64,000 nucleotides of DNA, from NCBI RefSeq assembly GCF_002356115.1, contig NZ_AP014836.1:930001-994000 (forward strand), given 5' to 3'. Below the pieces are notes generated by a model, which saw only the letters and a program-made list of their open reading frames with translations, was not told the DNA's origin and ran no database searches. Numbering within the stretch: the stretch's first letter is position 1; each line of letters begins with the position of its first letter. The translations under genes were made by a program, and so were the position numbers. Shown piece by piece: positions 9,314 to 26,093 of the stretch. The stretch is from Candidatus Nitrosoglobus terrae (GTDB lineage Bacteria; Pseudomonadota; Gammaproteobacteria; Nitrosococcales; Nitrosococcaceae).

Positions 9314-10531
9314 TTAAAACCTAGGATCAAATAGAGTGATCCAGTGTTTGACCGGCAATGAGGATTGGCTTTGAAGATGGGTTAAGCAGCCAATATTAGC
9401 AGTGGCAATGATTTGAGGAGATCCGGCTTCCAGTGCTACAAGTTTGTTGGCTAGCAAGCGTTGGGAGAGATCTTGCTGTAAAATAGAATAAGTTCCCGCT
9501 GAGCCGCAGCAAAGATGAGCATTCTCCACCTCAGTTAGGTCAAACCCCGCCTCTTGAAGTAGCTTCTCCACGACACCATTGAGCTGTTGGCCATGCTGAA
9601 GCGTGCAAGGCGATTGGAAGGTAATGCGGCGAGGGATTTGGGGAGAGGGTATCAGGGCAGATCGATCCTCTTGAGTCAGAATTTCACTAATATCTTTTGT
9701 GATTGCCGCAACTTTGGCGGCTTTGGTCGCATAAAGCGGATCTTCCTTAAGTAAAATTCCGTACTCTTTAATCATAGCCCCACAGCCGCTGGCAGTAATT
9801 ACAATAGCTTCAGCCCCCGCTTCTATATAAGGCCACCAAGCATCAATATTTCGGCGCATAAAGACTAGTGCTGGCTTAGGATCTGAGAGATGATGGTTAA
9901 TTGCCCCGCAGCAGCCGCTATTAGGGGCTTTTAATAAGCTGATATTGAGTCGATCTAATACCCAAGCGGTACTCGCATTAATTTCAGGAGCAAGGGTGGG
10001 TTGGACGCAGCCTTCTAAAATTAACATTTTACGGCTATGGGGGGTAGTAGGCCAGGGTGTTGGTTGCCCTAGAGAGGGGAGATGTCGCTTCATGGCAGCG
10101 GGTAAAACAGGCGATAACATTCGCCCTAATCGTAATAATGGGGTAAAGCGTCGTGGATAAGGTAATACGGCTCGTAATGATGCTCGGATCAGACGCTCCC
10201 AAAGTGGCCTAGATACTTGAGCTTCAACGACTTCACGACCAATATCCAGCAGGCGGGCATAACGGACTCCAGATGGGCAAGTCGTTTCGCAGGCGCGGCA
10301 GGTAAGGCACCGATCTAAATGTTGCTGTGTTTTACTACTAGGTGTTTTTCCTTCAAGTACCTGTTTGATTAAATAGATACGGCCACGGGGTCCATCTAAT
10401 TCATCTCCTAGTAATTGATAAGTGGGGCAGGTCGCTGTACAAAACCCGCAATGTACGCAAGCGCGTAAGATACTATCAGCTTCCTGTCCTTCAGGTGTTT
10501 TTTTAATAAAGCTAGCTAAATCGGTTTGCAT
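9314..10531 (-). CDS. glcF: Glycolate oxidase iron-sulfur subunit
   Basis: GlcF carries electrons from the GlcD/GlcE flavin part of glycolate oxidase and is needed for salvage of 2-phosphoglycolate. The 405 residues contain two ferredoxin-type clusters, CVHCGFCTATCP (about residues 25-36) and CLTCRACETTCP (about 74-85), followed by two cysteine-rich CCG domains (NSGCCGAINH and HLCCGSAGTYS). glcE lies 17 kb away at 28005 and glcD is not in the window, so the usual glcDEF operon is broken up. Its 5' end was copied into the region around 11.9-12.0 kb. Confidence 0.95.
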   Translation of the reverse strand: MQTDLASFIKKTPEGQEADSILRACVHCGFCTATCPTYQLLGDELDGPRGRIYLIKQVLEGKTPSSKTQQHLDRCLTCRACETTCPSGVRYARLLDIGREVVEAQVSRPLWERLIRASLRAVLPYPRRFTPLLRLGRMLSPVLPAAMKRHLPSLGQPTPWPTTPHSRKMLILEGCVQPTLAPEINASTAWVLDRLNISLLKAPNSGCCGAINHHLSDPKPALVFMRRNIDAWWPYIEAGAEAIVITASGCGAMIKEYGILLKEDPLYATKAAKVAAITKDISEILTQEDRSALIPSPQIPRRITFQSPCTLQHGQQLNGVVEKLLQEAGFDLTEVENAHLCCGSAGTYSILQQDLSQRLLANKLVALEAGSPQIIATANIGCLTHLQSQSSLPVKHWITLFDPRF

Positions 10532-10895
10532 GTTATTCGGTGTCTTAGGTGGCTTTTGATAGCTTAAGTGTATAGCTTTACCTTTGAGATAGGTAGCTGT
10601 TAAATAACATTGAGATGATGATTTACATGAGTGTGCAGGAATAGGTATTTAAAAATAACTAAAGTCATGGATTGGCTATGAAAGAAGCACCGCTAAGAGA
10701 TAGTCAGCAATTACTCTCAGTTTAATCGTCAAAATATCTTACATTAATAAGATATTGATTTATATAAAATAATTTCTATATTTGTGATTAAGTGTTATTT
10801 ATTTTACAGTAGCAAGCATAATCTTAAAAAATATCCATTCATTATATAACTATTTGATTTATAGGCTTTTTATAAATCATGTATTTAGCATTCAA
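10393..10895. repeat. Diverged direct duplication, copy A (glcF 5' end plus upstream region)
   Basis: This stretch is homologous in the same orientation to 11921-12400. Matching blocks include AGTAATTGATAAG (in glcF), TTTTTTTAATAAA at the glcF 5' end, AGTCAG within the purine-rich block near 10700, ATTGATTTATA near 10750 and ATTTGATTTATA near 10850. Identity is patchy but collinear over about 500 bases, with small gaps. Copy A contains the intact start of glcF. Confidence 0.8.
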
Positions 10896-11203
10896 CATAT
10901 TAGCAGGGCCTTCTATTGCCAAAATAATTTACATTACTAGGCCGATGATGGATTGAAAAGCTCTATTTTTAGCTAGATCCCTTAGGCGAGCAAAATAATC
11001 ACTAACATTGAAAAATCCTGTTGGCACCTTCACGTTCTCTCGTTTAAATCACTAGAAGCCCGGAATTATATATCTTCTTTAACCCCAGAGATTTTTCTAA
11101 CCGTTCAAATATTACCCCTTCTAGTTATTGTCAATTAATATTTGGCATGATTATTGCTAAATTACTTATTGTATAATTATAATTATTATTTCTGGAGTGT
11201 TAG
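10532..11203. other. 672-base AT-rich intergenic region between glcF and the first PEP-CTERM gene
   Basis: No convincing gene is seen. The left half belongs to duplication copy A. The right part (about 10900-11140) is AT-rich and unassigned. A sigma-54-type promoter sits at 11143-11158, just before the PEP-CTERM gene. The region must also hold the glcF promoter, which I could not locate with confidence. Confidence 0.6.
11143..11158 (+). promoter_or_regulatory. Sigma-54 (RpoN) type promoter for PEP-CTERM gene
   Basis: The sequence TGGCATG-ATTA-TTGCT matches the -24/-12 consensus TGGCACG-N4-TTGCW. The GG and GC dinucleotides are exactly 10 bases apart. A start site would fall near 11169, giving a leader of about 35 bases to the ATG at 11204. 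Sigma-54 control, often with PrsK/PrsR regulators, is known for PEP-CTERM/exosortase systems. Neither rpoN nor prsKR is in the window. Confidence 0.65.
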
Positions 11204-11809
11204 ATGAAACTTAAGAAGATAGTCTCGATTGCATTAACAGGCAGTGTGATGGCTTTATCGGCAGGGGCGTATGCAATACCGACAGTAGTTGGCGGGGATG
11301 GCAAGTGTAGTTCGGCAGGTATTTTTAACGATGCATCAGAGTGCGCTGGTGGATATAGCAAAAATGCTATAAATAACAGCAGTAGCGGTGTAAGCACTCA
11401 GGTAGCCGCTCTTACATCACTCGGCTTTGATTTTGGTACTGGTGGTTCTAGTAGTTTCGATTTTAATAATTTCACCGTGATTAATGCTAATGGTAGCAAC
11501 GTTTCCGGTAGCAGTATATCGGTAGGCCAGATGATGACAGGTATCACTATTTTTGGTGCCCACTTTGGGAATGGGAGTCCTCTTGGAAATGAGACGGCAT
11601 TCTACAAATATGACGCTGGAACAGTAGGGACATCGACTATTACCTTTAATAACATTAAGGGTATTTCAAATCTTGTGGTCTACTCGACGGGTGGGACTCC
11701 GACAACACCAAGTGTGCCTGAACCGGCAACTTGGACAATGTTGCTCACTGGTTTTGCTTTGATGAGTGTTGTTATGCGTCGCCGTCAAACGGCTCCGATC
11801 GTTTCCTAA
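11204..11809 (+). CDS. PEP-CTERM sorting domain-containing exported protein
   Basis: The 201-residue protein has a signal peptide (MKLKKIVSIALTGSVMALSAGAYA, cut before Ile-Pro) and a Ser/Gly/Asn-rich secreted body. It ends with the tripartite sorting signal: VPEPATW, a hydrophobic helix (MLLTGFALMSVVM) and RRRQ. Exosortase would cleave this signal, and the protein is predicted to be surface or extracellular-matrix associated. GGAG lies 8 bases before the ATG. A sigma-54-like promoter precedes it and a hairpin follows. The body resembles other PEP-CTERM proteins but gives no specific function. No exosortase gene is in the window. Confidence 0.9.
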   Translation: MKLKKIVSIALTGSVMALSAGAYAIPTVVGGDGKCSSAGIFNDASECAGGYSKNAINNSSSGVSTQVAALTSLGFDFGTGGSSSFDFNNFTVINANGSNVSGSSISVGQMMTGITIFGAHFGNGSPLGNETAFYKYDAGTVGTSTITFNNIKGISNLVVYSTGGTPTTPSVPEPATWTMLLTGFALMSVVMRRRQTAPIVS

Positions 11810-11820
11810 CTTTATTTAAA

Positions 11821-11854
11821 GACATGACGCTGTCACTCTCTACAGCGTCATGTC
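11821..11854 (+). terminator. Strong hairpin after the first PEP-CTERM gene
   Basis: GACATGACGCTGT (11821-11833) pairs perfectly with ACAGCGTCATGTC (11842-11854) around an 8-base loop. It starts 11 bases after the PEP-CTERM stop codon. There is no T-run after it, so it may be an mRNA 3'-end stabiliser or a weak terminator rather than a classic intrinsic terminator. Confidence 0.65.
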
Positions 11855-11920
11855 ACCTTCATATGCGCTGAATATATATTTCTGAGCTCTATACAACATT
11901 AGTTAGTTTTAACGCCCCCT

Positions 11921-12039
11921 AGGCTAACTTACCTCCCAGTAATTGATAAGCAGATCAGATCGCTCTACAAAATTGACAGTGCACCCAAGTACGTAAGATA
12001 AGCTGCTATCAGAATTTCTGCTCTATTTTTTTAATAAAA
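11921..12039 (-). pseudogene. glcF: Relic of the glcF 5' end
   Basis: Read on the minus strand this gives LRTWVHCQFCRAI-stop-SAYQLLGGKLA. It aligns with LRACVHCGFCTATCPTYQLLGDELD of intact GlcF. The third cluster Cys codon TGC has become TGA. The bases around the start codon are deleted, and the copy ends after about 40 codons. It is therefore a dead fragment left by duplication of the glcF start and upstream region. Confidence 0.85.
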
Positions 12040-12400
12040 CCGGTGTCTTTGGGATAGGTAGCGTTTAAAAAGCGTAGCAATATAGATATCTAAAATGTCA
12101 GTATTATTTACATGTATTAAAAATACATGATTTTCCTTGGATGACCGATGAAAGGAGGTATTACTAGGAGACAGTCAGAGGTGATCTTAAATTTGATTGT
12201 AAAAATATTTTACATTAAATAAGCTATTGATTTATAAATAATAATTTATATTGCCGCTATTGAATGTCAGTTATTTTTACAATAAAAAAACTTACTTCAA
12301 TACTTAAAACTTAAAAATATCTACCTCTATATTAATAAATATTTGATTTATAACGTTTTTATAAAATGTGCATATTTATTGCATGTTTTGTAGTAAGCGG
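11921..12400. repeat. Diverged direct duplication, copy B
   Basis: This is the second copy of the 10393-10895 stretch, in the same orientation. Collinear matches include AGTAATTGATAAG (11937-11949), TTTTTTTAATAAAA, GACAGTCAG, TTACATTAAATAAGCTATTGA and ATATTTGATTTATAACG. Boundaries are estimated by eye to within about 20 bases. In both copies the segment lies directly upstream of a PEP-CTERM gene. Confidence 0.8.
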
Positions 12401-12469
12401 AGAGCGCAATAAACTGTGCCTCAGCTTTCATACTATTTATTTATGTGCTCTTAGGAGGTAGATATAGAG

Positions 12470-13156
12470 ATGAAACCTGTCAGTCAAAAAGCTTTAAGAT
12501 GGCTTCTATCTTTAATTTTCATGGCAGTTGGATTTTTGCCACTGTTAGCTCAGGCAAATCCAATACAGTCGTTTAATATCAGCGGACAAGCGCAGTACTT
12601 CTTAAGTAATACCAATGATAATAATCCCGTTTCTGTAAGTTTTATGGGTACCATGGGGGTAGATCCTAGTGGTCAGGATCAGAATTTTGGCTCTATTGGT
12701 CAGGTCACTTCAATATCGTTTGAATTTCCAGATTTATCATCCATTCCTACCTTCAATACCATAGTGACTCAAGGCCCGCTAGTAGCGCAGATTGATCAAC
12801 CCCTTGCGTATAGTATCGGGCTTCAAAACACAAATGGTGAAACCGCCACATTTAGTTTTATCACACCTCACTCATCTGCGACTTTTTTTGGTACTGAACC
12901 GATTGGTTCGTTGGTTGATTTTAATGGCGGTAGTATCTTTCAGGGGCAAACTGGATCAGTGAGTACAGCAGGTGGCTCTATTTTTTTGCAAAACTTTAGC
13001 GGTAGTATCGATAGTATCACTCCAAGCCCTATAACGAGTATGCCGGAGCCGGCCACGCTGGAAATGTTTAGCCTAGGCTTATTGTTAATCAGCACATTCA
13101 TAGGGTTACGTCCAAGCGCTAAAGCAAATTACTTAAGCGATCGAAAGGGGGAATAA
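12470..13156 (+). CDS. PEP-CTERM sorting domain protein, coupled to a di-heme cytochrome
   Basis: The 228-residue protein has a signal peptide (MKPVSQKALRWLLSLIFMAVGFLPLLAQA). Its Ser/Gly/Asn-rich body carries no domain I recognise, and the end shows a sorting motif: MPEPATLEMFSLGLLLISTFIGL then RPSAK. The basic cluster after the helix is weaker than usual. The ribosome site AGGAGGT is 10 bases from the ATG. The stop codon TAA shares its last base with the ATG of the cytochrome gene, so the two are translationally coupled. The pair probably works together at the cell surface or periplasm. Confidence 0.88.
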   Translation: MKPVSQKALRWLLSLIFMAVGFLPLLAQANPIQSFNISGQAQYFLSNTNDNNPVSVSFMGTMGVDPSGQDQNFGSIGQVTSISFEFPDLSSIPTFNTIVTQGPLVAQIDQPLAYSIGLQNTNGETATFSFITPHSSATFFGTEPIGSLVDFNGGSIFQGQTGSVSTAGGSIFLQNFSGSIDSITPSPITSMPEPATLEMFSLGLLLISTFIGLRPSAKANYLSDRKGE

Positions 13157-14418
13157 TGAAAGCAAAACTTTTTTCAGCGCTAACAGGTGGGGCATTATTA
13201 GCTATATCTGGAGTGATAAGTTACAGTGTGGCGCAGCAAAGTAATGATTCAACGCCGCAAGATCAGAACGAGGCGCTCATTGCGCAGGGCCAGCAAGTTT
13301 TTCGCTTCAATACATTTGGGGATGAGATTACTTGGACAGATAAGCTGCAATTAAATACTGTTATCAGTCAAGCGGTAGATCCCTTAACTGCCTTAGCTGT
13401 TGGTTTAAAAGTAGATGTGGATGCGTTACCTGAGGCGGTGCAGAAAGGGATCACCGGTGGAAGTATTGATTTATCAAGCCCGGCAACTACCGTTGCCTTA
13501 TTAAAACTAGATGCCGTCGTGGGTGTTAAAGGTACGGTTGAAACAGTAAATGGCACGGATACGTTGACTCAAGTGGGGGTTACTTGTGCGCTTTGCCATT
13601 CAACTGTTGATAATTCATTTATACCCGGTATTGGTCATCGGCTGGATGGTTGGCCTAATCATGATCTAGATCCAGGGAAGATCATCGCTTTATCCCCAGC
13701 TTTTTCCCAAGCAGATAAAGATAAATTAAATTCTTGGGGGCCTGGCATGTACGATCCTCGCTTTAATATTGATGGATTGAGCGATCCGGTTGTAATCCCA
13801 CCTGCGTACGGTTTGGAGGGTGTACATAGCGTTGTTTATACAGGTGATGGTCCTTCACTTTCTTATTGGAATCGCTATGTTGCTGTTACTCAGATGGGCG
13901 GACAAGGGTTGTTTTCGGATCCAAGAATTGGCACTCATATTAATCCGGATCAGCCTGGCTTGAAGCCTGGTTGGCATCCTGGCGTATTTGTGGTGAATGG
14001 TAAGCAGGATCTGGTCACCAGCAATCTAGCTGCATTGCAGGCTTATCAGCTGTCCATATCGGCCCCCTTACCGCCAGAAGGCAGCTTTGATCCTGATGCA
14101 GCTGCTCGTGGCGAAGGGCTATTTGATGGATCGGCAGGTTGTGCCCGCTGTCATAGTGGTCCGAAATTTACGGATGCTAATCAGCGACTCCATCCACCTG
14201 CTGATACGGTAGCTGAAGATAAGCTCTATGTAACTCGTTCAGCCACTGGCATGTGGCGTACTACTCCATTGCGTGGCTTGTGGCAACACCCGCCTTATTT
14301 ACATGATGGCTCAGCACAAACCCTTAGTGATGTGGTGCAGATATACAATGATAAAATGAATCTTGGGCTTACCAGTGCGCAGATGAGTGATCTTGCAGAG
14401 TATCTGAAGACGCTCTGA
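13156..14418 (+). CDS. Di-heme cytochrome c, peroxidase (CcpA/MauG-like) family
   Basis: This 420-residue exported protein has a signal sequence (KLFSALTGGALLAISGVISYSVA) and two heme c motifs, CALCH (about residue 147) and CARCH (about 327). The region TTPLRGLWQHPPYLHDGSAQTL near the C-terminus is typical of the bacterial cytochrome c peroxidase superfamily. Members reduce H2O2 with cytochrome c electrons or carry out oxidative modification (MauG). The spacing of the two hemes (about 180 residues) is longer than in classical CcpA because of an N-terminal extension. It is coupled to the upstream PEP-CTERM gene and followed by a strong terminator. Confidence 0.88.
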   Translation: MKAKLFSALTGGALLAISGVISYSVAQQSNDSTPQDQNEALIAQGQQVFRFNTFGDEITWTDKLQLNTVISQAVDPLTALAVGLKVDVDALPEAVQKGITGGSIDLSSPATTVALLKLDAVVGVKGTVETVNGTDTLTQVGVTCALCHSTVDNSFIPGIGHRLDGWPNHDLDPGKIIALSPAFSQADKDKLNSWGPGMYDPRFNIDGLSDPVVIPPAYGLEGVHSVVYTGDGPSLSYWNRYVAVTQMGGQGLFSDPRIGTHINPDQPGLKPGWHPGVFVVNGKQDLVTSNLAALQAYQLSISAPLPPEGSFDPDAAARGEGLFDGSAGCARCHSGPKFTDANQRLHPPADTVAEDKLYVTRSATGMWRTTPLRGLWQHPPYLHDGSAQTLSDVVQIYNDKMNLGLTSAQMSDLAEYLKTL

Positions 14419-14454
14419 AACAAGATTGATTAAAGTGGGTTATAGATAATCCTC

Positions 14455-14487
14455 AAAAAGGGGTAGCAAAAAGGCTACCCTTTTTTT
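14455..14487 (+). terminator. Intrinsic terminator of the PEP-CTERM/cytochrome operon
   Basis: GGGTAGC (14461-14467) pairs with GCTACCC (14474-14480) around the loop AAAAAG. A run of seven T residues follows (14481-14487), and an A-run before the stem makes it partly bidirectional. It starts about 35 bases after the cytochrome stop codon. Confidence 0.92.
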
Positions 14488-14517
14488 CATTGAAATTTCT
14501 AGTGTTCCTTTGCAACA

Positions 14518-15122
14518 ATGCCTGAGAAATCAGCAGGCCGCCTTCAAAAACTTCCCCCAAGCGAACCTACGCTGCTGCCGGTTACCGATAAAAAGGTCGG
14601 CATCGATGTAGGCATTAAGAATTTATTCGTCACCAGTGATGGCTTCAAATCCGGAAATCCACGCCATAGGATGAAGTACGTCGCCAAGCTTGCCAAATAC
14701 CAACGCCGCCTTGCCAAGAAAAAACTTGGCGGCAAGAACCGGCAAAAGGCAAAGCTCAAGGTGGCCCGTATTCACGCCAAAATCTCCGATTGCCGGATGG
14801 ATAACTTTCCCGCAAAAACCTTGCGGTGAAGAACATGATTAAAAACCCGAAACTGGCAAAGCCCATCGCCGATGCAAGCTGGGGAGAATTTACTCGGCAG
14901 TTGGAATACAAGGCCAAGTGGGCCGGTAGAGTGTATATCGAAATTGACCGATTCCTCCCTTCGTCAAAACGCTGCCACTGCTGCGGGTTTGTTTCTGAAT
15001 CGATGCTGCTTGATGTCTGCTCGTGGATCTGTCTAGAATGCGAGAGAAAACACGACCGCGATGTTAATGCGGCGTGTAATATAAAAGCCGCCGGACTGGC
15101 GGTGTTAGCCTTTGGAGACTGA
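14518..15122 (+). pseudogene. tnpB: TnpB (IS605 OrfB/IS1341-type) nuclease, broken
   Basis: Two adjoining frames hold TnpB pieces. The first (14518-14829) has VGIDVGIKNLFVTSDG, the RuvC-I Asp segment, and the basic linker QRRLAKKKLGG. The second (from 14827, GTG AAG AAC ATG) has VKNMIKNPKLAKPIADASWGEF, the zinc finger CHCCG...CLEC and HDRDVNAACNI (RuvC-III Asp). Intact TnpB has about 25-30 residues with the RuvC-II Glu between ISDCRMD and VKNM. These are deleted here and the frame shifts. The N-terminal half is also missing. The product cannot be an active RNA-guided nuclease. Confidence 0.9.
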
Positions 15123-15204
15123 GTAAGCGGCGGTAGCATTTCGCTGTTGTCGTTCCGCGATCGATGAATTAGGAATCCCCTTCCTTTGGGGAGGGGGATG
15201 TCAA
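14518..15204 (+). mobile_element. Remnant of an IS200/IS605-family (IS1341-type) element with right end
   Basis: The element consists of the tnpB pseudogene plus a right end at 15123-15204. The right end contains a hairpin (CCCCTTCC at 15177-15184 with GGGAGGGG at 15189-15196) and finishes with GATGTCAA (15197-15204), as these right ends commonly do. No tnpA is present. The left boundary is not identifiable and the start given is that of the tnpB relic. In intact elements the region around the tnpB stop and right end encodes the omega RNA; a decayed omega RNA scaffold may remain here. Confidence 0.75.
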
Positions 15205-16710
15205 TGAGAGCTTTCTTATGATTGGCAGCATAGCTGATGCGATTAAGGCACAGCCAAGACCCGCAATACCCAGCCAGTTAAACAGGTAAGTATAGATGGG
15301 CAAGGTCATGATCGGGTCAGTCATCTCTTTAGGAACTGCAGCTAAGGTGGCGATCCAGCCCCCGAAATATTGGGATATTCCCGTGGCGATAAAATAAGTA
15401 CCCATCATAAATCCACCTACTCGTGCTGGCCCATAGCGCGCAATCATCGCTAACCCTAGGCCGCTTATTAATAGCTCTCCTAAGGCGCCAAAGCCGTAAC
15501 CCCAGACTATGACCCAAGAAGAAGTTTTGCCGGCTATGTTAGTAAAGTGCGCCGCAGCGCCATAAATAAAAAAACTGATGGCCATCATCATAAAGCCAAT
15601 TGCAAATTTTCCGGCAACAGGGAGATCTTTTCCTTGATTGCCCGCATGGGTATAAATCCAAGCTAAGATTGGACTGAGAATAAAGATCCAAATAGGGTTT
15701 AGGGCTTGAAATTGGGCCGGTGCCCATGTGAATACATGAAAGCCAAAGACATTAAAATTCCAGTCTACGTTACGTAAAATAAATAGCGCCAGTGAGCTGG
15801 AGGTTTGTTGATAAAAAATAAAGAAAAAAATCACTTGAATCGTGAGTATTAAAGCGATAAGTAGCCCGGATCGTTCATGAGGACGGGCAGTATAAATAAA
15901 AAAGGTAAAAAAGAAAAATATAGCCGCCGTTGCCATATAGATAAACAGACGAGCTATGGTTTCATGCTTAAGTATAAAGGCTGCAAGGAAGGCCATAAGG
16001 ATGCTTAAGCCAATAACTAGCCCTAGCTTACCTATTTTCAAGGGATGGGTATCAGGTTCAGAACCGGTATAGGCGAGAGTGCGGCGCATTAAGAAATAAC
16101 CACCAAGCCCGATGGCAAGGCCAAAGCCACTGACTGTAAAAGCAACATGCCAGCCAAGATCATAGCCATATTGGATATTAATATAATCCTTCACCCATGG
16201 AGTCAGGAGCATGGAAATCATGGAACCCATATTCACGCCCATATAATAGAGGGTAAAGGCGCTATCCATCTTGGAAGGGCTACCCTCATATATTTTACGT
16301 ACCATGTTGCCTGCGTTTGCTTTAAATAGCCCGTTACCTACTATGATCACTCCAAGGGCAAAAAATATGAATTCTACTGGCTGATGGGGCACCCCTAGCA
16401 ACCCATAGCCTAAGGTCAGCACGATAGCTCCTAATAACATGGTACGTCGAGTACCTAGGATCTTATCGCCAATCCATCCTCCTATCGCAGGTGTGGTATA
16501 GATGAGGGCTACACAGGTACTCCAAGTAAGATTGGCATGTCTATCACTAAACCCAAGCTGCTCTATCAAGTAATAAACAATGAGTACTTGCATGCCGTAG
16601 AAGCCAAAACGCTCCCACATCTCCAACAATAAGATCGTGCTAAAGGAGCGAGCTTGGGATATAGGATGATTAACCCTTAAGGTTACATTTCCCCTAATCG
16701 GTGTTGTCAT
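15169..16710 (-). CDS. Proton-dependent oligopeptide transporter (POT/PTR family)
   Basis: The 513-residue inner-membrane MFS protein takes up di- and tripeptides with protons. The family signature is present at the N-terminus: LEMWERFGFYGMQVLIVYYL contains the ExxERFxYYG-like motif. GGWIGDKILGTRRTMLLG is the MFS loop 2-3 motif, and about 14 hydrophobic segments follow. The last residues, TSPSPKEGDS and the stop, are encoded inside the right end of the IS605-type remnant. The natural C-terminus was therefore replaced by the insertion, which affects only the cytoplasmic tail. GTG/ATG choice: ATG at 16710. Confidence 0.93.
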   Translation of the reverse strand: MTTPIRGNVTLRVNHPISQARSFSTILLLEMWERFGFYGMQVLIVYYLIEQLGFSDRHANLTWSTCVALIYTTPAIGGWIGDKILGTRRTMLLGAIVLTLGYGLLGVPHQPVEFIFFALGVIIVGNGLFKANAGNMVRKIYEGSPSKMDSAFTLYYMGVNMGSMISMLLTPWVKDYINIQYGYDLGWHVAFTVSGFGLAIGLGGYFLMRRTLAYTGSEPDTHPLKIGKLGLVIGLSILMAFLAAFILKHETIARLFIYMATAAIFFFFTFFIYTARPHERSGLLIALILTIQVIFFFIFYQQTSSSLALFILRNVDWNFNVFGFHVFTWAPAQFQALNPIWIFILSPILAWIYTHAGNQGKDLPVAGKFAIGFMMMAISFFIYGAAAHFTNIAGKTSSWVIVWGYGFGALGELLISGLGLAMIARYGPARVGGFMMGTYFIATGISQYFGGWIATLAAVPKEMTDPIMTLPIYTYLFNWLGIAGLGCALIASAMLPIIRKLSLTSPSPKEGDS

Positions 16711-16761
16711 CTTGCTTTTAGGGACATTATTTTAGGGAGGAGGGGTCAATAGACTACTAAA

Positions 16762-16959
16762 CTAGCAGCAGCTCATTTTACCTTTGCCGCCATAGCGAGC
16801 TTCTTGGCGCTCTCGGAAAAATTCTGCATAGGACATTACCGGCTGATCTGGATGGGTATTTTTCATATGAGTCAGATAGATATCGTATTCAGGTACACCA
16901 ACCATCAGCCGCATACCTTGACTAAAATAGCGCTTTATTTGCTTGATTTTATTTAACAT
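16762..16959 (-). CDS. ybdD: YbdD/YjiX family small protein
   Basis: This 65-residue protein matches the YbdD/YjiX (DUF466) family: MRLMVGVPEYDIYLTHMKNTHPDQPVMSYAEFF and RYGGKGKMSCC. These small proteins are nearly always encoded directly after CstA-type transporters and appear to assist them. The gene overlaps the end of cstA by 11 bases, which supports coupled expression. Confidence 0.93.
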   Translation of the reverse strand: MLNKIKQIKRYFSQGMRLMVGVPEYDIYLTHMKNTHPDQPVMSYAEFFRERQEARYGGKGKMSCC

Positions 16960-19033
16960 GGCTCAGGGTATCTACGCAGGTGAGTATCTCCGTTTCAAGG
17001 CGGGTTTCTTGAGTGCTGGGGTTGTCTATAGCGCGGGCACGTAAAATAGTTTTAATTCCGAATACCATGATGCTAATGACCACCAGTATAAATATACTGG
17101 CTAGAGCTGCATTCAGATAATCATTAAAAATAACTTGCTCCATTTGCCCAGTGGATTTGGCTGGTGGGAGTAATCGACCTTCAGCTACGGCAATTTTATA
17201 ACTCTCCGCATGGGCTAAAAATCCAATACGGGGATCAGAGTGAAATATTTTTTGCCAACCAGCAGTGAGCGTGCAAATTAAAATCCAGACAGTAGGCACA
17301 ATGGTGACCCAAGTAAATCGATCCTGCTTCATCTTAAATAAGACGCAGGTGGCAAAAATCAAAGCAATACCCGCCAGCATCTGGTTGGAAATTCCAAATA
17401 ACGGCCATAACGTATTAATTCCCCCAAGGGGATCGACCACGCCCTGATAAAGAAAATAGCCCCAGCCGGCAACACAAATACCCGTGGCAATCAGGCTAGC
17501 GCCTATTGAATCGATGCGTTTCATTGCGGGGATAAATGCCCCAAGTAAATCCTGTAGCATAAAACGTCCAGCACGAGTACCCGCATCAACCGCAGTTAAG
17601 ATAAAAAGTGCTTCAAATAAAATGGCAAAATGATACCAGAAAGCCGTCATCGTGTTACCGCCTGTAAGATCTGACAGGATACGCGCCATACCCACGGCCA
17701 AGGTGGGGGCACCGCCGGCTCTAGAGATAATCGTATGTTCACCCACATCTTGAGCAGTCTGGGTGATCATCTCCGGGGTAAGATAAAAACCCCATTGGGA
17801 AATAGTTTGCGCGGCTGATTCCGCTGTACTGCCAATGAGCGCTACTGGGCTGTTCATGGCGAAATATATCCCAGGTTCGAGGATAGAAGCCGCTACTAAA
17901 GCCATAATCGCGACAAAAGATTCCATTAACATTGCCCCATAACCGATAAAGGGGGCATGGCTTTCATTTTCGATCATTTTAGGCGTAGTGCCAGAAGAAA
18001 TCAGAGCATGGAAGCCTGAGACAGCGCCACAGGCGATGGTAATAAATAAAAAAGGAAAGAGACTGCCGGACCACACTGGGCCAGAGCCATCTATGAACTG
18101 GGTAAAAGCGGGCATTTTAAGCTGGGGAGAAATGATAATAATGCCAATCGCTAGGCTGACAATGGTGCCAATTTTTAAAAAAGTAGACAAGTAATCCCGA
18201 GGGGCTAATAGCAGCCAAACAGGTAGTATTGAAGCTACAAAGCCATAGGCAATCAATATCCAAGTTAATTGGATACTCGTTAAGGTAAATAGGGCAGCTA
18301 AAGCAGGAATTTCCTGTATATATTGCCCGCTCACGATAGATAGGATGAGTAACGTAAAACCAATAAGGGAGACTTCGCCAATACGCCCTGGGCGAAGATA
18401 GCGACTATAGATACCCATAAACAGAGCAATAGGAATAGTCGCTGCGACAGTAAAAGTGCCCCAAGGGGATGCAGTCAGCGCTTTAACTACAATGAGCGCC
18501 AATACGGCTAAGAGGATTACCATGATAAAAAAGGTGCCCAATAGAGCAATCATGCCAGGTATTAGCCCCATCTCGGATTTAATCAGATCTCCAAGTGAGC
18601 GACCATCCCGCCGTATAGAGATAAAGAGAATAATAAAATCCTGTACGGCTCCAGCAAAGACAACCCCAACCAGTAGCCACAAAAACCCTGGCATATACCC
18701 CATCTGTACAGCCAATATTGGGCCTACTAAAGGGCCGGCACCCGCAATAGCCGCAAAATGATGCCCAAATAAGACATATTGATTAGTGGGGACGTAATCT
18801 AGGCCATCGCAATGGGTATATGCAGGAGTTTGGCGGGCTGGGTTTAATCTGAGTACTTGTTTAGCAATGAATAAACTATAAAAACGATAAGCGATGAGGT
18901 AAAGACATAGGGTGGCAATGACAATCCAAATTGCCCCGATAGACTCCCCATGGTTTAAAGCGATAAAGCTAAATGCTACTGCGCCAGTGAGGGCAAGGAT
19001 AGTCCAGCCAAGCTTATTGATAGTGCGACTCAC
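16949..19033 (-). CDS. cstA: CstA-family transporter (pyruvate/peptide carbon starvation protein)
   Basis: The 694-residue inner-membrane protein of the CstA/BtsT family has about 16-18 hydrophobic helices. Typical segments are HFAAIAGAGPLVGPILA near residue 90, FHALISSGTTPKMIENE (about 340) and LWPLFGISNQMLAGIAL (about 560). CstA and BtsT import pyruvate and related small molecules. The start is GTG with TAGGAGG upstream. It is followed by ybdD and preceded by an unknown membrane gene and a two-component system on the same strand. The upstream sensor has a Cache domain, which fits carboxylate sensing. Confidence 0.93.
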   Translation of the reverse strand: MSRTINKLGWTILALTGAVAFSFIALNHGESIGAIWIVIATLCLYLIAYRFYSLFIAKQVLRLNPARQTPAYTHCDGLDYVPTNQYVLFGHHFAAIAGAGPLVGPILAVQMGYMPGFLWLLVGVVFAGAVQDFIILFISIRRDGRSLGDLIKSEMGLIPGMIALLGTFFIMVILLAVLALIVVKALTASPWGTFTVAATIPIALFMGIYSRYLRPGRIGEVSLIGFTLLILSIVSGQYIQEIPALAALFTLTSIQLTWILIAYGFVASILPVWLLLAPRDYLSTFLKIGTIVSLAIGIIIISPQLKMPAFTQFIDGSGPVWSGSLFPFLFITIACGAVSGFHALISSGTTPKMIENESHAPFIGYGAMLMESFVAIMALVAASILEPGIYFAMNSPVALIGSTAESAAQTISQWGFYLTPEMITQTAQDVGEHTIISRAGGAPTLAVGMARILSDLTGGNTMTAFWYHFAILFEALFILTAVDAGTRAGRFMLQDLLGAFIPAMKRIDSIGASLIATGICVAGWGYFLYQGVVDPLGGINTLWPLFGISNQMLAGIALIFATCVLFKMKQDRFTWVTIVPTVWILICTLTAGWQKIFHSDPRIGFLAHAESYKIAVAEGRLLPPAKSTGQMEQVIFNDYLNAALASIFILVVISIMVFGIKTILRARAIDNPSTQETRLETEILTCVDTLSHVK

Positions 19034-19036
19034 TAT

Positions 19037-19100
19037 TGTCCTCCTAAAGCGAAAATTAAGATAGTTATATAGTTATCAGCAATCTCGATCTAGGTAGCGC
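19037..19100. repeat. Leader direct repeat, copy 1 (upstream of cstA)
   Basis: This stretch, directly upstream of the cstA start, is about 75 percent identical by eye to 19977-20044, directly upstream of the unknown gene at 19174-19974. Shared blocks are CCTAAAG, AAAATTAAG, GGTTAT/AGTTAT and the AATC-TGATCTA block. Both copies contain the Shine-Dalgarno site at one edge. Confidence 0.7.
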
Positions 19101-19173
19101 CCTAGTAGTAAAGTAATACCATAATAACGAAGTCACAAGCGCAGATAGCAACCGAGGGTAAATAAAACGGGCG

Positions 19174-19974
19174 TTAAGGTGAATCATCTTTTATCATAAT
19201 TCTGGTATAGCTTTGACAAGCAAAAGCAATCGCAGTTTTTCCACCAATCTCTCCCTGCATTACAGTACAGGGCTTTGTTCTTCTAATTCTATGGTTTTCA
19301 TCACGGAGCTTTATGATCTCCTTTATTTTTTCATCAATGGTATCCTTTAATAATGGATTAAACTTATTACCGTCTTTATCAACAGTATATTGTGTAAAAC
19401 CTGTCTGCTCTGAAGCAATCTCAAAGAACCGGCCAGCTAGAGTCCCGTCTTTTTTGATACGAACATACGAATTGTAAATATATCTTACAATAGCGAGTTG
19501 CTCATATTTACCCTCAATAATGGCCTCTATATCAAATGTCGTATCATCTTTACCTTTTAAAATAAAACCTCCTTCATTTTCTGGATCTGGATGACAATAG
19601 GTCTCCCTCCAAGCACCATCGAGAGCCGTGGATCGGGCATCTTTCTTGAGAGTTTCAATAAAAAGATAACTTTGATACAACGAATAGTTTCCTAATAACT
19701 TTTTGCATACGCTCTCACCATCAGGCATTAACTCTTTTAAAAATGAGCGGGCTAGAGGTGTAGATATGAGTACTAAAAAGCCAGACACTACTAATAGTAT
19801 AAGTAATCGTAAGAGCTTCTTATGATTATTCAATTTTTCTTTCAAGACTGGCAATAGCGTCCCCGCTGTCCCCATTGATGATACGAGCTGCGGGTCGAGG
19901 TATATTAATAAGTGTGTAAAGATGGTGAAGAAGACGATATACAAGATATACTCATAATAAATAAAATTCATCAC
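19174..19974 (-). CDS. Membrane-anchored protein of unknown function
   Basis: The 266-residue protein has two hydrophobic segments (about residues 5-25 and 53-72) and a soluble C-terminal region of about 190 residues. That region contains several Cys (SVCKKLLGNY, ETYCHPDPENEGG, TKPCTVMQ, FACQSYTRIM). I recognise no family. The start is GTG-ATG (either codon) with TAGGGG upstream. It sits between the response regulator and cstA on the same strand, and its leader is a copy of the cstA leader. It may belong to the same regulon, but its role is unknown. Confidence 0.7.
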   Translation of the reverse strand: MMNFIYYEYILYIVFFTIFTHLLIYLDPQLVSSMGTAGTLLPVLKEKLNNHKKLLRLLILLVVSGFLVLISTPLARSFLKELMPDGESVCKKLLGNYSLYQSYLFIETLKKDARSTALDGAWRETYCHPDPENEGGFILKGKDDTTFDIEAIIEGKYEQLAIVRYIYNSYVRIKKDGTLAGRFFEIASEQTGFTQYTVDKDGNKFNPLLKDTIDEKIKEIIKLRDENHRIRRTKPCTVMQGEIGGKTAIAFACQSYTRIMIKDDSP

Positions 19975-19976
19975 TG

Positions 19977-20044
19977 TTTTCCCCTAAAGAAGTTAAAATT
20001 AAGGTGGTTATACGGTTATTATTAGTAATCCTGATCTAAATAAC
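19977..20044. repeat. Leader direct repeat, copy 2 (upstream of the unknown membrane gene)
   Basis: This is the partner of 19037-19100. It covers the gap before the 19174-19974 gene and runs a few bases into the 3' end of the response regulator gene. Any promoter in the repeat would therefore drive both the unknown gene and cstA. Confidence 0.7.
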
Positions 20045-20725
20045 ATCTGATCTATCGGGTTTTTTGCAGCCGGTCATCTCGGGAGGAGTCTTATGACGCT
20101 TCCTATATTCAGTAGCAATGTTTATCGCTTGAGGATGGCTTTTAATCTTAAGTTTTCGCCAGATACTCGCCCGGTGGCCTTCTATGGTGCGTGGCTCAAT
20201 GTTAAGTATCCGCGCAATTTCCTTAGTTGACTTAATGTCACCCATGTTCCATAGCACTTGTAATTCCCGATTAGTGAGTAATTGCTCAGGAATGGATGGA
20301 GGCTCAGGTGGAATCAGCGATGAAGGTTCGAGAAAATCAATTTCTTTATCTATGATATTCTCAATTGTGGATACAATTTCTGGCCAAGGAGTCTCTTTCA
20401 GTATATAGCCCCGGGCGCCGGCTAGTTTTGCTTCTCTGATGTATTCTTTCCTATCTTCGTTAGTGAGTATTAGGACGACTACGTGTGGGAATCGAGATCG
20501 AATGAGTTCAGCTAATCTAATACCATTGATCCCGCGCATACAAAGATCCACTATGGCTAGGTTAATCTCTAAGTTATTTTGTAGATGTTGTAAGGCATCT
20601 TCTGCTTTATTGGCTTCAGCTACTAACTTAAATCTAGGGACAGATTCCAACATAAGGCGCAATGTAGGGCGCACCCAAGGATCATCATCGACAAGCAGTA
20701 TTTTGATAAGGGGTAAAGTAGACAT
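20036..20725 (-). CDS. NarL/LuxR-type response regulator
   Basis: This 229-residue cytoplasmic regulator has an N-terminal receiver domain (about 7-125). Acidic DDD lies at residues 13-15, the phospho-acceptor Asp60 is in LAIVDLCMRG, and the conserved Lys follows GARGYIL. A C-terminal LuxR helix-turn-helix runs from about 150 to 210 (LTNRELQVLW, STKEIARILNIEPRTIEGHRASIWRKL). It lies 14 bases after the histidine kinase gene and is its likely partner. Targets probably include the downstream cstA region, by location only. Confidence 0.92.
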   Translation of the reverse strand: MSTLPLIKILLVDDDPWVRPTLRLMLESVPRFKLVAEANKAEDALQHLQNNLEINLAIVDLCMRGINGIRLAELIRSRFPHVVVLILTNEDRKEYIREAKLAGARGYILKETPWPEIVSTIENIIDKEIDFLEPSSLIPPEPPSIPEQLLTNRELQVLWNMGDIKSTKEIARILNIEPRTIEGHRASIWRKLKIKSHPQAINIATEYRKRHKTPPEMTGCKKPDRSDVI

Positions 20726-20739
20726 AGGATAGGAATAAA

Positions 20740-22119
20740 TTAATGATAAACCTTAATGATGACTATGGTCCCTTGCAGTGAAGAGGTAATAGTTAATTCC
20801 CCACCCACAGATTCCACTCGTTCTTTCATATTGTGTAAGCCAAATCCATGCTTTGGATCGCATTTGATATGATCTACATTAAAGCCGATACCATCATCTT
20901 GGATGGTAAGCTGGACGCAGGCAGAATCCTCTTCCAATTTCACAGTTACATGGCGAGCATGCGCATGCCGTTTAATGTTATGTAACGATTCTTGGGTAGC
21001 TCGGTACAAGGCCCTATTAGTCGTAATAGATAGGCTATCTACTTCACCATAGGTACTGAACTTAGCCGCTATACCTACATCATGTATGTTAAGCACAAGC
21101 TGCTCTATGGCTACCTTCAGGCCAAGGTCAAGGGCGAGAGGGTGTAAGTCACGAACAATCCGGCGAAGCTCGGTTAGCGTATCTTTTAGTTTTACTGCGA
21201 TATCCTCTAACCTAACCCGGACTGAATCAGATTGCTCATTCTCTAGTAATTCAATAATCCTGCCTTCGATTCTAAATTTAATACCTACTAGCATATTCAT
21301 GACGCTATCATGTAATTCTCTTGCTACCCGAGTACGTTCTTCCTCCTGTGTATTTATAATCCGCTGGGCTAATATTTTAAGTTTGGCATCGGCTACACTA
21401 AGTTTTGTATCTACCCTGATATTGAGCACCAAGCTTAAAATTATTATCAAAACTACAACAAAGGTAGCGATAATAATTATCGAGAATGTAGTACTGTGGA
21501 TGTTATCCCGTAGCTGAGAATTTACTTTTATTAACGCTCGATCAATATCATCAAGATAAACCCCCGTGCCTAATATCCATCCCCATTTGGGCAGCGTTAT
21601 AACATACGTTCGTTTAGGGGCAATACTATGGCTAGAAGGTTTTTCCCAGTCATAATTTTCGAATCCACCTTTATCGTTTGTCCGTGCGCGGTTAATGAGA
21701 TCTTGGATAACTAATTTGCCCTGATCATCCTTAAGATTCCACTGATTGGTTCCTACCAGATTCCACTGGCGTGAGTGAACAAGGGAATTTCCTTGATAAT
21801 CGTAGACAAAAAAATAGCCATCTTTCCCATATTCCAATTTAGCTAAAATTGCTTTCGCTTCTTCCATTACAGCCGTATCTACTCGACCTGAATCATAGAG
21901 ATGAGTAATTGAACGCTTTGCCAGCGTGATATAGCTTTTCAGCTCTAAATCCTTACTATTAAGGTAGGTTGTTTTAATGACTTCCTGCTGTTGTTTCTCA
22001 AGGGCAATAGCTTGATAGCGTACCGTGTACACAATAACGAAAGTTGAGGCGATAAGTGGCACAATGGCAAGTAGGATAATTTTCCATCGTGACTTTATTG
22101 TTAGCCATAACTGGCTCAT
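20740..22119 (-). CDS. Cache-domain sensor histidine kinase (HisKA_3, NarX/DegS-like)
   Basis: This is a 459-residue inner-membrane sensor. It has a first membrane helix (about 12-34) and a periplasmic single Cache domain (about 40-195) with GYFFVYDYQGNSLVHSRQWNLVGTN-type features and GWILGTGVYLDDID. A second helix lies at about 212-234. A HisKA_3 dimerisation helix carries His270 in EEERTRVARELHDSV, and the HATPase domain has NIKRHAHA, DDGIGF and GFGLHNMKERV. Such Cache domains often bind small carboxylates, consistent with the nearby CstA transporter; the ligand is inferred. Confidence 0.92.
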   Translation of the reverse strand: MSQLWLTIKSRWKIILLAIVPLIASTFVIVYTVRYQAIALEKQQQEVIKTTYLNSKDLELKSYITLAKRSITHLYDSGRVDTAVMEEAKAILAKLEYGKDGYFFVYDYQGNSLVHSRQWNLVGTNQWNLKDDQGKLVIQDLINRARTNDKGGFENYDWEKPSSHSIAPKRTYVITLPKWGWILGTGVYLDDIDRALIKVNSQLRDNIHSTTFSIIIIATFVVVLIIILSLVLNIRVDTKLSVADAKLKILAQRIINTQEEERTRVARELHDSVMNMLVGIKFRIEGRIIELLENEQSDSVRVRLEDIAVKLKDTLTELRRIVRDLHPLALDLGLKVAIEQLVLNIHDVGIAAKFSTYGEVDSLSITTNRALYRATQESLHNIKRHAHARHVTVKLEEDSACVQLTIQDDGIGFNVDHIKCDPKHGFGLHNMKERVESVGGELTITSSLQGTIVIIKVYH

Positions 22120-22176
22120 ATTTTTACTCCTACCCTAATTTCAACTGCTAGTTTACTAAGCTATCGGAGGCATGTT

Positions 22177-22210
22177 TAGACGTATCACTACGTACGTAGT
22201 GATACGTCTA
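22177..22210. repeat. Perfect 34-base palindrome between divergent genes
   Basis: The arm TAGACGTATCACTACGT (22177-22193) is followed immediately by its exact reverse complement (22194-22210) with no loop. It lies between the divergent kinase and subtilase genes, 62 bases before the subtilase start. No T-run follows. It could be an extended operator, a cruciform, or an end-repair product of a former insertion. Confidence 0.9.
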
Positions 22211-22271
22211 GTCTGTAGATGATTGCTACTGGATACTCTGTAAAACCTTTGTAACAAGATCGGAAAAATAA

Positions 22272-24155
22272 ATGAGAATAAAAACTTACTTATGGATTTT
22301 TTGTATCTTTTTCAGCATGATTTTAACTATAGCGATTGCTCAAGACTCCCAGCCAGCACCTGTTGTTGCAGTAGGGGTTATCGTTCGCTTTAAATCCCCT
22401 GAAATCCAAGCTTTAGCCCAAGATAATCTCCCACCCCCGCCAGAGGTGGTAGCTGAACTGGAAGCTGCTCTAGGAGAAAAACTGGTATTTGAGCGAGCAA
22501 CAGTGAATGAAGCTTATGTTTTTAGTTTTTTAGTCCCGAAAGAGGGAGAAAATACTATTGCCGATTTTCTCCAGCCGGCTAAAACATTGCCTTCCATTGA
22601 TTGGATTGAAGCGGATAAGCTAATGAAACTACAGTCCTCACCTGTACAAACCCAGCCGTCAATGATGTACGCCCAGTCATTCTCTAATGACCCTGATTTT
22701 AGTGATCAATGGAATATGATGGATTCCCCCGGTGGAATCGATGCGACCCACGCTTGGGATATTACCCATGGCTCCTCTAATACTGTTGTAGCGGTAGTGG
22801 ATTCAGGTGTATTTTCTCATCCGGAATTTGCCGATCGCTTGCTGGGAAATTATGATTTTACCTCTCGATCTTCTACTTCAAACGGCCCTGATTGTATAGA
22901 TCCTCATGGTACTGGTGTGACTGGAATCATTGCTGCAAGTGGTGATAATGGTATCGGTATCGCTGGGGTCAATTGGCGAACCCGTATTCTCTCTGTACGG
23001 GTGATGGATTGTAATGGTGTAGGGCAAAACAGTATAACAGCGGAGGGTATTCAATGGGCCGCTGGAGTTAGAGTCCCTGGCGTTCTAGCTAACCCCTACC
23101 CAGCTAAGGTCATCAATCTAAGCCTTGGCTCAGATTCTAGAGAACAATGTCCATCTTACACGCAACGCGCGATTAGTGCCGCTTCAGCCGCGGGGGCATT
23201 GGTTGTGGTAGCTGCAGGTAATAGCACTGATAATGTTCAGGATTATTCACCTAATGATTGTAGAGATACCCTATCAGTAATTGCTACTGATCTGAACGGC
23301 GGATTAGCCTCTTATTCTAATTTTACCGATCCTGTGAATAAGAATGGCGCGACTGCTGCCCCTGGTGGAGATAAAGGCAATGGAATCTTATCCACTAGTA
23401 TCGTACCCGATGCTAATGGGAAGTCTGCCTATGGCTATGCATATATAACGGGAACGAGTATAGCGGCTCCCCATGTATCTGGCATCGCTGCTTTGATGCT
23501 TGGAGTCAATCCAAATTTATCGCAGGAACAACTGCTTTTATATTTAAAGGCTACCAGCCGGTCTTTTCCCACCACAAGTTCTTATTGCATTGTAGGATTC
23601 TGCGGCGCGGGCATAGCAGATGCTTATCGAGCGGTAATGGCATCTTTTTACGCTAAGAATTATCAGTTTGTATATGAATTTTATAATACCGGAACGAACC
23701 ATTACATGCTGACCGCTTCGGATGATCAGGCAACTGTTTTATATAACGGCGGGGCGGGGCTAGAGAACTGGGAGGGTACTTTAAAATATTTCTATGCCTG
23801 GCCTAGACCCGAAGAAGGCGCAGTGCCTGTTTATCGATTTTACACCCTTGGGGCAAATTCCCATTTCTATACGGCAAGCACGGAAGATCGCAACCTGCTC
23901 ATCAAGCTCAATCCTTCTAATATATATAGCGAGGATCAATGGACTTATGAGGGTATTGCCTTCTATGCCAAGTTGCCCACGGGGGGTCTTTGCCCTGCAG
24001 GTTCTGTTTCCATTTACCGACTTTATAATAATCGGGCAATATATAACGATTCTAATCATCGTTTTGTAAGCTCATTTAAAGCGTACATGAACATGATCTC
24101 AAAAGGCTGGGTTGGGGAAAACATAGTTTTCTGTGCTGCTGCCGATGATAATTAG
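22272..24155 (+). CDS. Secreted S8 family (subtilisin-like) serine protease with C-terminal repeat domain
   Basis: The 627-residue protein has a signal peptide (MRIKTYLWIFCIFFSMILTIAIA) and a propeptide to about residue 135. The peptidase S8 domain carries Asp177 (VVAVVDSGV), His212 (DPHGTGVTG), the oxyanion Asn317 (VVAAGNS) and Ser396 (ITGTSIAAPHVSG), so it should be active. Residues from about 465 form a DUF5648-like beta repeat region (VYEFYNTGTNHYMLTA, VYRFYTLGANSHFYTAS, IYRLYNNRAIYNDSNHRF), probably for binding surfaces or glycans. The gene stands alone, downstream of the 34-base palindrome. Confidence 0.92.
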   Translation: MRIKTYLWIFCIFFSMILTIAIAQDSQPAPVVAVGVIVRFKSPEIQALAQDNLPPPPEVVAELEAALGEKLVFERATVNEAYVFSFLVPKEGENTIADFLQPAKTLPSIDWIEADKLMKLQSSPVQTQPSMMYAQSFSNDPDFSDQWNMMDSPGGIDATHAWDITHGSSNTVVAVVDSGVFSHPEFADRLLGNYDFTSRSSTSNGPDCIDPHGTGVTGIIAASGDNGIGIAGVNWRTRILSVRVMDCNGVGQNSITAEGIQWAAGVRVPGVLANPYPAKVINLSLGSDSREQCPSYTQRAISAASAAGALVVVAAGNSTDNVQDYSPNDCRDTLSVIATDLNGGLASYSNFTDPVNKNGATAAPGGDKGNGILSTSIVPDANGKSAYGYAYITGTSIAAPHVSGIAALMLGVNPNLSQEQLLLYLKATSRSFPTTSSYCIVGFCGAGIADAYRAVMASFYAKNYQFVYEFYNTGTNHYMLTASDDQATVLYNGGAGLENWEGTLKYFYAWPRPEEGAVPVYRFYTLGANSHFYTASTEDRNLLIKLNPSNIYSEDQWTYEGIAFYAKLPTGGLCPAGSVSIYRLYNNRAIYNDSNHRFVSSFKAYMNMISKGWVGENIVFCAAADDN

Positions 24156-24305
24156 AGCTGTGGCCAATGAGGTAATGATTCCGATTGAGATACCTTTAGG
24201 AAATTCAGGCTATATTCAGCTTAAATAACAAAGCTTCATCTATAATCATTTATGGTAACGCATCCATATCCACTGATAGAGTACCTATAAAGAGGGTTGA
24301 TCACC

Positions 24306-25382
24306 ATGAAAGGGCAAAAGCTTTTATTGTTTGTGACTGCTTTATCCTCTTTTATTCATCGCCGATTTATTTGGTTACTGCTCGGTTCTTATAGTGTAGC
24401 GGCCTTATGGCCAGGGTGGGGATTGTGGATGCAGAATTTTTCCTTAGGGAATCTTAGCTTCATGGAGGAGGAAATACCCTTCAAACTTCCGCTGTTGATG
24501 TTAGCATGGCTGCTATTAGATGCAGGCTTGGAAGCAAAGTTATCAGAATTGAAGTACTTACCCCAGAATCTAGCAATATTAGCGGCTGGGTTTATGGTTA
24601 AACTATTGATCCCGGCTGCATTTGTCATCGGTTTATCGTTACTGATGATGCAATGGTGGCACAATCCAGATGAAGTACAGAGTATTTTAGTAGGATTGGC
24701 ATTGGTAGTGGCAATGCCCATTGCCGGGTCGTCAACGACTTGGTCGCTAAATGCGAATGGTAACGTGGTCACTAGCCTAGGATTAGTCCTGATAACAACG
24801 TTCCTCAGTCCAGTAACTGCGCCACTACTGCTTCATGCTGTAGGATTAGTCACCACAGGCGATTATGCTAAAGAATTAAACGCAATGGCCAGCCATGGGA
24901 TAGGGCTGCTGTTAATTTTAAGCATAGTGATACCCTCGATGGTAGGAATTTTAATCCGCTTTTTTTATGGAGAGAACTGGATTATACAAGCTAAACCCTA
25001 TTTAAAATTTACCCGCTCGGTAGTTCTACTATTGCTGGTTTATTCCAATGCAGCAATTTCACTACCCCAAGCCATTGCTCATCCTGATTATGATTTTTTA
25101 GCAGTGATTATTGTAATCACTTTTGGGCTATGCGCCTTTGCCTTTGCCGCCGGCTGGTGGATAGCTCAGTTATTTCGAGCTACTGTGGCTCAGCGAATAT
25201 CACTCATGTTTGGCTTAGGGATGAGTAACAATGGAACGGGGCTGGTGCTAGCGTCTATCACCTTAGCCAATCATCCCCAAGTAATGTTGCCCCTTATTTC
25301 CTATAATTTAATCCAGCAGCTGATAGCGGGAGGCGTAGGTCGGATGTCGTTGCAAAAAGCATCTACTGCTTTACTAAAATAA
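24306..25382 (+). CDS. BASS-type (bile acid:sodium symporter superfamily) transporter
   Basis: This membrane protein of about 358 residues has about 10 hydrophobic helices. It contains AMPIAGSSTTWSLNANGN and FGLGMSNNGTGLVLASITLANHP, the two conserved substrate/Na+-binding crossover segments of the BASS fold. Substrates of bacterial members are organic anions and vary widely. I chose the ATG at 24306 (AGAGGG 9 bases upstream) over an in-frame TTG at 24297. A copy of its last 60 bases lies downstream at about 26157-26210. Confidence 0.85.
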   Translation: MKGQKLLLFVTALSSFIHRRFIWLLLGSYSVAALWPGWGLWMQNFSLGNLSFMEEEIPFKLPLLMLAWLLLDAGLEAKLSELKYLPQNLAILAAGFMVKLLIPAAFVIGLSLLMMQWWHNPDEVQSILVGLALVVAMPIAGSSTTWSLNANGNVVTSLGLVLITTFLSPVTAPLLLHAVGLVTTGDYAKELNAMASHGIGLLLILSIVIPSMVGILIRFFYGENWIIQAKPYLKFTRSVVLLLLVYSNAAISLPQAIAHPDYDFLAVIIVITFGLCAFAFAAGWWIAQLFRATVAQRISLMFGLGMSNNGTGLVLASITLANHPQVMLPLISYNLIQQLIAGGVGRMSLQKASTALLK

Positions 25383-25503
25383 TGGGTTCTATCATTAGAT
25401 TAATTAGGAGGTAGTAACTTGATTAACGGGGGAGCAATGAACGAATGCTGATGACAATAGCAGATTGCTCTTAATACATTTGATATCGGTGGGTTAAAAA
25501 ACC

Positions 25504-26058: not shown

Positions 26059-26093
26059 TATTTATTAATTATTATCTGCTTTAAGAGAAAATC

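Follow-up and report, generated by a model that had tools for sequence, protein, structure and literature searches.

The window analysed here, a 64 kb stretch of the Candidatus Nitrosoglobus terrae genome, contains an intact, leftwards-transcribed glcF gene (9314-10531, minus strand) and, to its right, two genes transcribed on the plus strand that encode a PEP-CTERM protein, PEP1 (11204-11809), and a PEP-CTERM-like protein, PEP2 (12470-13156). The 405-residue glcF product matches the NCBIfam GlcF equivalog at 658 bits (cut-off 333), and its orthologues in five genomes are 69-79% identical. PEP1 (201 aa) scores 39 bits against NF035944 (PEPxxWA-CTERM; cut-off 35), and no full-length relative was found in the family. 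A perfect 13 bp inverted repeat 3' of PEP1 (11821-11854) is a possible transcription end, but it lacks a T-run and is therefore not called a terminator. PEP2 (228 aa) has a 63% identical counterpart in a genome of the sister genus (G002) and is PEP-CTERM-like, with MPEPATLEMFSLGLLLISTFIGLRP near its C-terminus followed by a few polar residues; no model is matched above cut-off (best E-value 0.0075), and the G002 orthologue exceeds the cut-off of TIGR02595 (17.2 versus 16 bits). The PEP2 stop codon overlaps by 1 nt with a gene encoding a cytochrome c/MauG-like protein (13156-14418, plus strand; 420 aa, 75% identical in G002). Further rightwards, at 14518-15122, is a degraded IS200/IS605-type TnpB gene, of which two incomplete frames survive and the N-terminal region is missing.

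A direct repeat is present at this locus. Copy 1 (10369-10892, 524 nt) comprises the 5' end of glcF together with about 360 nt of upstream DNA, and copy 2 (11899-12385, 487 nt) is defined by its local alignment to copy 1. The two are identical at 344 of 452 aligned columns (76%), with numerous small gaps, and the alignment score of 253 compares with a mean of 48 and a maximum of 75 in 300 shuffles. BLAST recovers the repeat as two pieces, one of 77 nt at 75% identity (E 3e-7) and one of 202 nt at 70% (E 9e-14), and genome-wide the strong matches are just these two copies, with one additional weak match of 40 nt. A preliminary description of this DNA had proposed a duplication of about 500 bases spanning the glcF start and its upstream DNA, a proposal that a pairwise alignment lacking significant similarity could have overturned; the alignment bears it out, and each copy does lie 5' of a gene whose product ends in a PEP motif, PEP1 being supported by its NCBIfam score and PEP2, weak by itself, by the score of its G002 orthologue. 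The direct repeat is a real segmental duplication. It was also considered as a simple duplication of a PEP gene, which we rejected because PEP1 and PEP2 are alike in the PEP tail alone.

Copy 2 contains a relic of glcF corresponding approximately to codons 7-46 (11921-12040, minus strand), recognised by codon comparison and found independently in a six-frame protein search (residues 7-46, 48% identity, E 5e-4). The relic has two TGA codons and one TAG. A TGA replaces the TGC of Cys35 (11955-11957), in agreement with the earlier report of an in-frame TGA at a cluster cysteine, and the TGC of Cys25 has become TGG (Trp); the area of the glcF start codon, which had been described as deleted in the second copy, is indeed gapped in the alignment. 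These features bear on whether the non-coding similarity could have arisen without any duplication, through convergence upon the regulatory motifs described below in AT-rich DNA. The PEP-CTERM box and IHF motifs are common features of the regulon, as such convergence would need, but the motif sites fill only a small share of the 452 aligned columns and the repeat runs colinearly from glcF codons 7-46 into non-coding DNA; with a glcF relic present and order and orientation identical, convergence is already refuted and we assign it almost no weight. The duplication had also been called ancient, and it is old, but its age is relative only: the relic is 75% identical to glcF of its own genome and 64-69% identical to glcF of the others, as expected if the two other genera had already diverged when the duplication took place, over a segment (77 nt) too short to give a firm date.

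Haft et al. (2006) described a 17-nt motif ending in TTTACA upstream of PEP-CTERM genes, sometimes repeated and followed after 32-92 nt by a sigma-54 site, and proposed PrsR as the activator (PMC1569441). In 369 genomes belonging to the class we looked for TTTACA placed at this distance from a sigma-54 site, and the matches that precede PEP- or PxP-CTERM reading frames read mostly TGTCRG-N5-TTTACA. A box matrix was built from 11 sites of other Gammaproteobacteria, the window itself being excluded; only sites starting with TGT or [TC]G[TC]C were admitted, and the matrix is therefore somewhat idealised. Its five best locations on both strands of the 64 kb are, in order, at 12096, 12265, 10917, 12198 and 10727, all of them upstream of PEP1 or PEP2; in 2000 shuffles of both intergenic regions the mean number of sites that strong is 0.008, and never more than one occurs. 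The DNA upstream of PEP2 carries three of the sites, all on the plus strand in copy 2. Those at 12096-12112 (TGTCAGTATTATTTACA, 21.7 bits, the best in the window) and 12265-12281 (TGTCAGTTATTTTTACA, 21.3 bits, second best) match the consensus exactly, and the site at 12198-12214 (TGTAAAAATATTTTACA, 17.2 bits) is a box-like palindrome in which TGT-N8-TTTACA is exact on both strands. Two of the three copy 1 counterparts are lost, and the one remaining, the counterpart of the palindrome, is a weak box at 10727-10743 (CGTCAAAATATCTTACA, plus strand, 15.6 bits, fifth best). Just outside the repeat and upstream of PEP1, a 17-nt motif ending in TTTACA is found at 10917-10933 (TGCCAAAATAATTTACA, plus strand, 17.6 bits, third best). 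The 2.02-Mb genome has three exact matches to TGTCRG-N5-TTTACA (TGTCRGNNNNNTTTACA), two of them in copy 2 and one within a long coding frame, and the reversed-pattern control has none. We also note an isolated box-like palindrome (TGTAAGATATATTTACA, minus strand, 14.8 bits) at 19473-19489, inside the open reading frame at 19174-19974, which is probably due to chance.

The window contains 13 exact IHF-consensus sites, four of which are in the repeat, two per copy at corresponding places and all on the plus strand. Copy 1 has TAAGATATTGATT at 10748-10760, an exact match to YAANNNNTTGATW, and TAACTATTTGATT at 10847-10859; copy 2 has TAAGCTATTGATT at 12220-12232, identical to copy 1 at 12 of 13 positions, and TAAATATTTGATT at 12336-12348. 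The boxes in the non-coding part of the repeat are predicted enhancers to which PrsR, a sigma-54 activator, would bind.

The -24/-12 promoter of PEP1 (TTGGCATGATTATTGCT, 11142-11158, plus strand) agrees with the consensus at 16 of 17 positions and is the sole exact TGGCAY-N5-TTGCW within the 64 kb. It is 45 nt before the ATG, within the 23-221 nt expected of such promoters, and lies about 250 nt beyond the end of the repeat; the nearest PEP1 box ends about 208 nt before it, with none closer, a spacer longer than the published 32-92 nt. Upstream of PEP2 there is a degenerate sigma-54-like site (TGTGCATATTTATTGCA, 12367-12383, plus strand), a weak match at 9 of 11 consensus positions in which the GG of the -24 element is replaced by TG; 7% of shuffles score equally well and it is possibly there by chance. 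Its position is right for a promoter, with 85 nt separating it from the preceding box and 86 nt from the start of PEP2; copy 1 has two 2-nt gaps here. A pattern combining box and sigma-54 site at the spacing of Haft et al. has no match in this genome, because the PEP1 spacing is longer and the PEP2 site is degenerate, and the count of sigma-70-like promoters (13 versus 8.5 expected) is uninformative. Since the strong sigma-54 core is outside the repeat and that of PEP2 is degenerate, enhancers were copied and not a whole promoter. The suggestion that the duplication spread an upstream control region from one of these genes to the second is thereby sustained for the enhancer part, in that boxes of the PrsR type and IHF-like sites stand at matching places in the two copies, but not as a wholesale copying of a promoter, and nothing indicates the direction of transfer.

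Components of such a system are encoded in the genome, namely PrsR (738 bits, cut-off 503), PrsK (663 bits, cut-off 300) and an exosortase of the EpsH family (PF09721, 258.6 bits, cut-off 25.7). A PEP-CTERM gene beside prsK-prsR (locus L193, 3177-3959, minus strand) is preceded by two boxes about 135 nt apart and then by TTGGCCTATCTATTGCA, the same promoter layout as at the present locus. The single exact box in G001 likewise precedes a PEP-CTERM gene, and G004 has an exact box near a TPR-like gene. In G002 no PrsR exceeds the cut-off, and the three PEP-CTERM loci inspected there lack boxes. Besides its exosortase, G002 (loci L144 and L183) carries PEP-CTERM genes and a sigma-54 site that is near-perfect (TTGGCATGATTTTTGCT), and another activator may serve there.

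Six genomes were compared, comprising this one, G002 of the sister genus, and four of a third genus including G001. The arrangement is absent from the inspected loci of the sister genus and of the four third-genus genomes, and among the six genomes it is therefore specific to this lineage; comparison with relatives, which had been suggested as a way of dating the event, thus gives absence at the inspected loci but no firm date. In G002, glcF is directly behind glcE without a PEP gene, and the PEP2-cytochrome pair is located elsewhere, adjoining a POT transporter gene as it does here but with a ferrochelatase-like gene upstream. The G002 cytochrome partner of PEP2 (locus L141, 4268-5521) is broken by an in-frame TAA, and its second haem motif is CANFH, not CARCH. 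The DNA upstream of PEP2 has no convincing homology to G002 beyond the ribosome-binding region. The gene order in G001 is glcF, a cystathionine gamma-synthase-like gene, a peptidase gene, glcE, a small lipoprotein-like gene and dnaE, and a search of the four third-genus genomes for PEP1 and PEP2 gave at most one weak match with stops. No remnants of the repeat's upstream DNA were found at the related glcF loci, where matches are limited to glcF coding DNA.

Within the window, glcF and the peptidase gene enclose a segment at 10.5-26.2 kb that runs from PEP1 to a second lipoprotein-like gene, and glcE is at 28005-29072. The two glc genes, adjacent in G002, are thus separated here by 17.5 kb (10532-28004) that holds PEP1, PEP2, the cytochrome gene, transporters, a two-component pair and a subtilase-like gene. 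We also note a second direct duplication, that of the small lipoprotein-like gene (25410-26134 and 30374-31109, 72% identity over 771 columns), of which G001 has one, between glcE and dnaE. On either side of the extra lipoprotein gene stands a copy of the 3' end of the neighbouring transporter gene (25311-25361 and 26157-26200); the two form a direct repeat and are nearly identical save for one 7-nt gap. Both PEP1 and the extra lipoprotein gene are added genes lying between two copies of a neighbour's end, and perhaps the same mechanism inserted both.

A plausible scenario, and the one we consider on balance to be the better supported, is that an old segmental duplication copied the 5' end of glcF together with a PEP-CTERM enhancer region, such that boxes are now positioned 5' of two unrelated PEP-CTERM genes, on which PrsR and sigma-54 are proposed to act. 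The glcF fragment would have been a passenger that later decayed. What is directly seen is the repeat with its relic, the boxes, the sequence of the PEP1 promoter and the genes for PrsR, PrsK and exosortase; PrsR binding, activation, and control of PEP2 and the cytochrome gene by PrsR are inferred. In outline, PrsK kinase would phosphorylate PrsR, PrsR would bind the 17-nt boxes, and with IHF or AT-rich DNA supplying a bend it would contact sigma-54 RNA polymerase at the -24/-12 site. At PEP1, activation would proceed from the box at 10917, possibly joined by the one at 10727, to the promoter at 11142-11158. For PEP2 and the cytochrome gene, the three copy 2 boxes (12096, 12198, 12265) would act on the weak site at 12367-12383; PEP2 may be activated weakly, or through a promoter that escaped detection. 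The scenario is weakened by the want of a good sigma-54 site at PEP2, by the long spacing at PEP1 and by the decay of two of the three copy 1 boxes. Two orders of events fit equally. In the first, a tandem duplication of truncated glcF, the upstream region and PEP1 would have been followed by loss of the second PEP1 and fusion of the upstream region to PEP2; in the second, a molecule bearing PEP1 would have been inserted by recombination into the truncated glcF and upstream region.

Two other interpretations accept the duplication and differ as to what the copied boxes do. Copy 2 could be junk, its boxes being remnants of the ancestral PEP1 enhancer and PEP2 having an ordinary promoter or none. 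The dead gene fragment inside copy 2, the lack of an intact sigma-54 site at PEP2, and the ease with which AT-rich DNA yields numerous sigma-70-like matches all favour this; the copy 2 boxes are, however, the better kept, two of them retaining 12 of 12 consensus positions beside a relic that has lost about 25%. Retention of 34 of 36 box positions has p of about 0.003 by our own post hoc estimate, which assumes about 25% neutral loss per site and perfect boxes in the presumed ancestor. We regard a neutral copy 2 as rather unlikely, though deserving of attention. Alternatively, the copy 2 boxes could serve PEP1 from about 1 kb away, or both genes, instead of PEP2 alone. Sigma-54 activators are able to act at a distance and from downstream, and the sole strong sigma-54 promoter belongs to PEP1. 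However, PEP1 has a 17.6-bit box 208 nt upstream of its own promoter, and in known PEP-CTERM promoters the boxes are 32-92 nt upstream (PMC1569441), so that we find service to PEP1 from downstream improbable.

Returning to the duplication of an enhancer region with its glcF passenger, a stronger version can be put forward tentatively, and we would not ourselves bet on it. The copied PrsR boxes may have recruited the PEP2-cytochrome pair, which has no boxes in G002, the one other place where it is known, to the regulon of PEP-CTERM genes. Selection would have kept the copy 2 boxes, whereas of the three originals two would have decayed after PEP1 acquired a box and a promoter of its own, and the glcF scrap would be a fossil of the event. 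Entry of bacterial genes into regulons usually goes unseen, because regulatory DNA carries no trace of its origin. Here the truncated glcF marks the source of the enhancer, so that the spreading of such an enhancer among PEP-CTERM genes through duplication becomes traceable and testable. That this fossil makes the history of the duplication readable is the main interest of the locus, and the outcome includes a sequence-defined, predicted PrsR box, TGTCRG-N5-TTTACA.

The locus resembles the PEP-CTERM box/PrsK-PrsR/sigma-54 promoters of Proteobacteria (PMC1569441) in its repeated TTTACA motif, its sigma-54 site before PEP1, and the presence of PrsR, PrsK and exosortase. It differs from them in the 208 nt spacing at PEP1, in the degenerate sigma-54 site of PEP2, and in that its enhancer shares a direct repeat with a piece of glcF. 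The binding of PrsR to the box is likewise a prediction in PMC1569441 and in the accessible text of PMC9850573. According to the latter text, pepA of Aquincola tertiaricarbonis is RpoN-dependent, its -24/-12 promoter has been mapped and an enhancer is predicted upstream of it, and it is thus similar to PEP1 as a PEP-CTERM gene with a -24/-12 site and a predicted upstream enhancer; it is a single promoter beside prsT for which that text reports no duplication, and its support is experimental, whereas ours comes from sequence (PMC9850573). As an ordinary segmental duplication with a truncated pseudogene would, the locus has direct repeats with one intact and one decaying gene copy, but here the non-coding half carries regulatory sites, which seem better kept in copy 2. 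The regulatory system is of a known kind, and the repeat adds a further case of it, one that was spread through an ordinary duplication.
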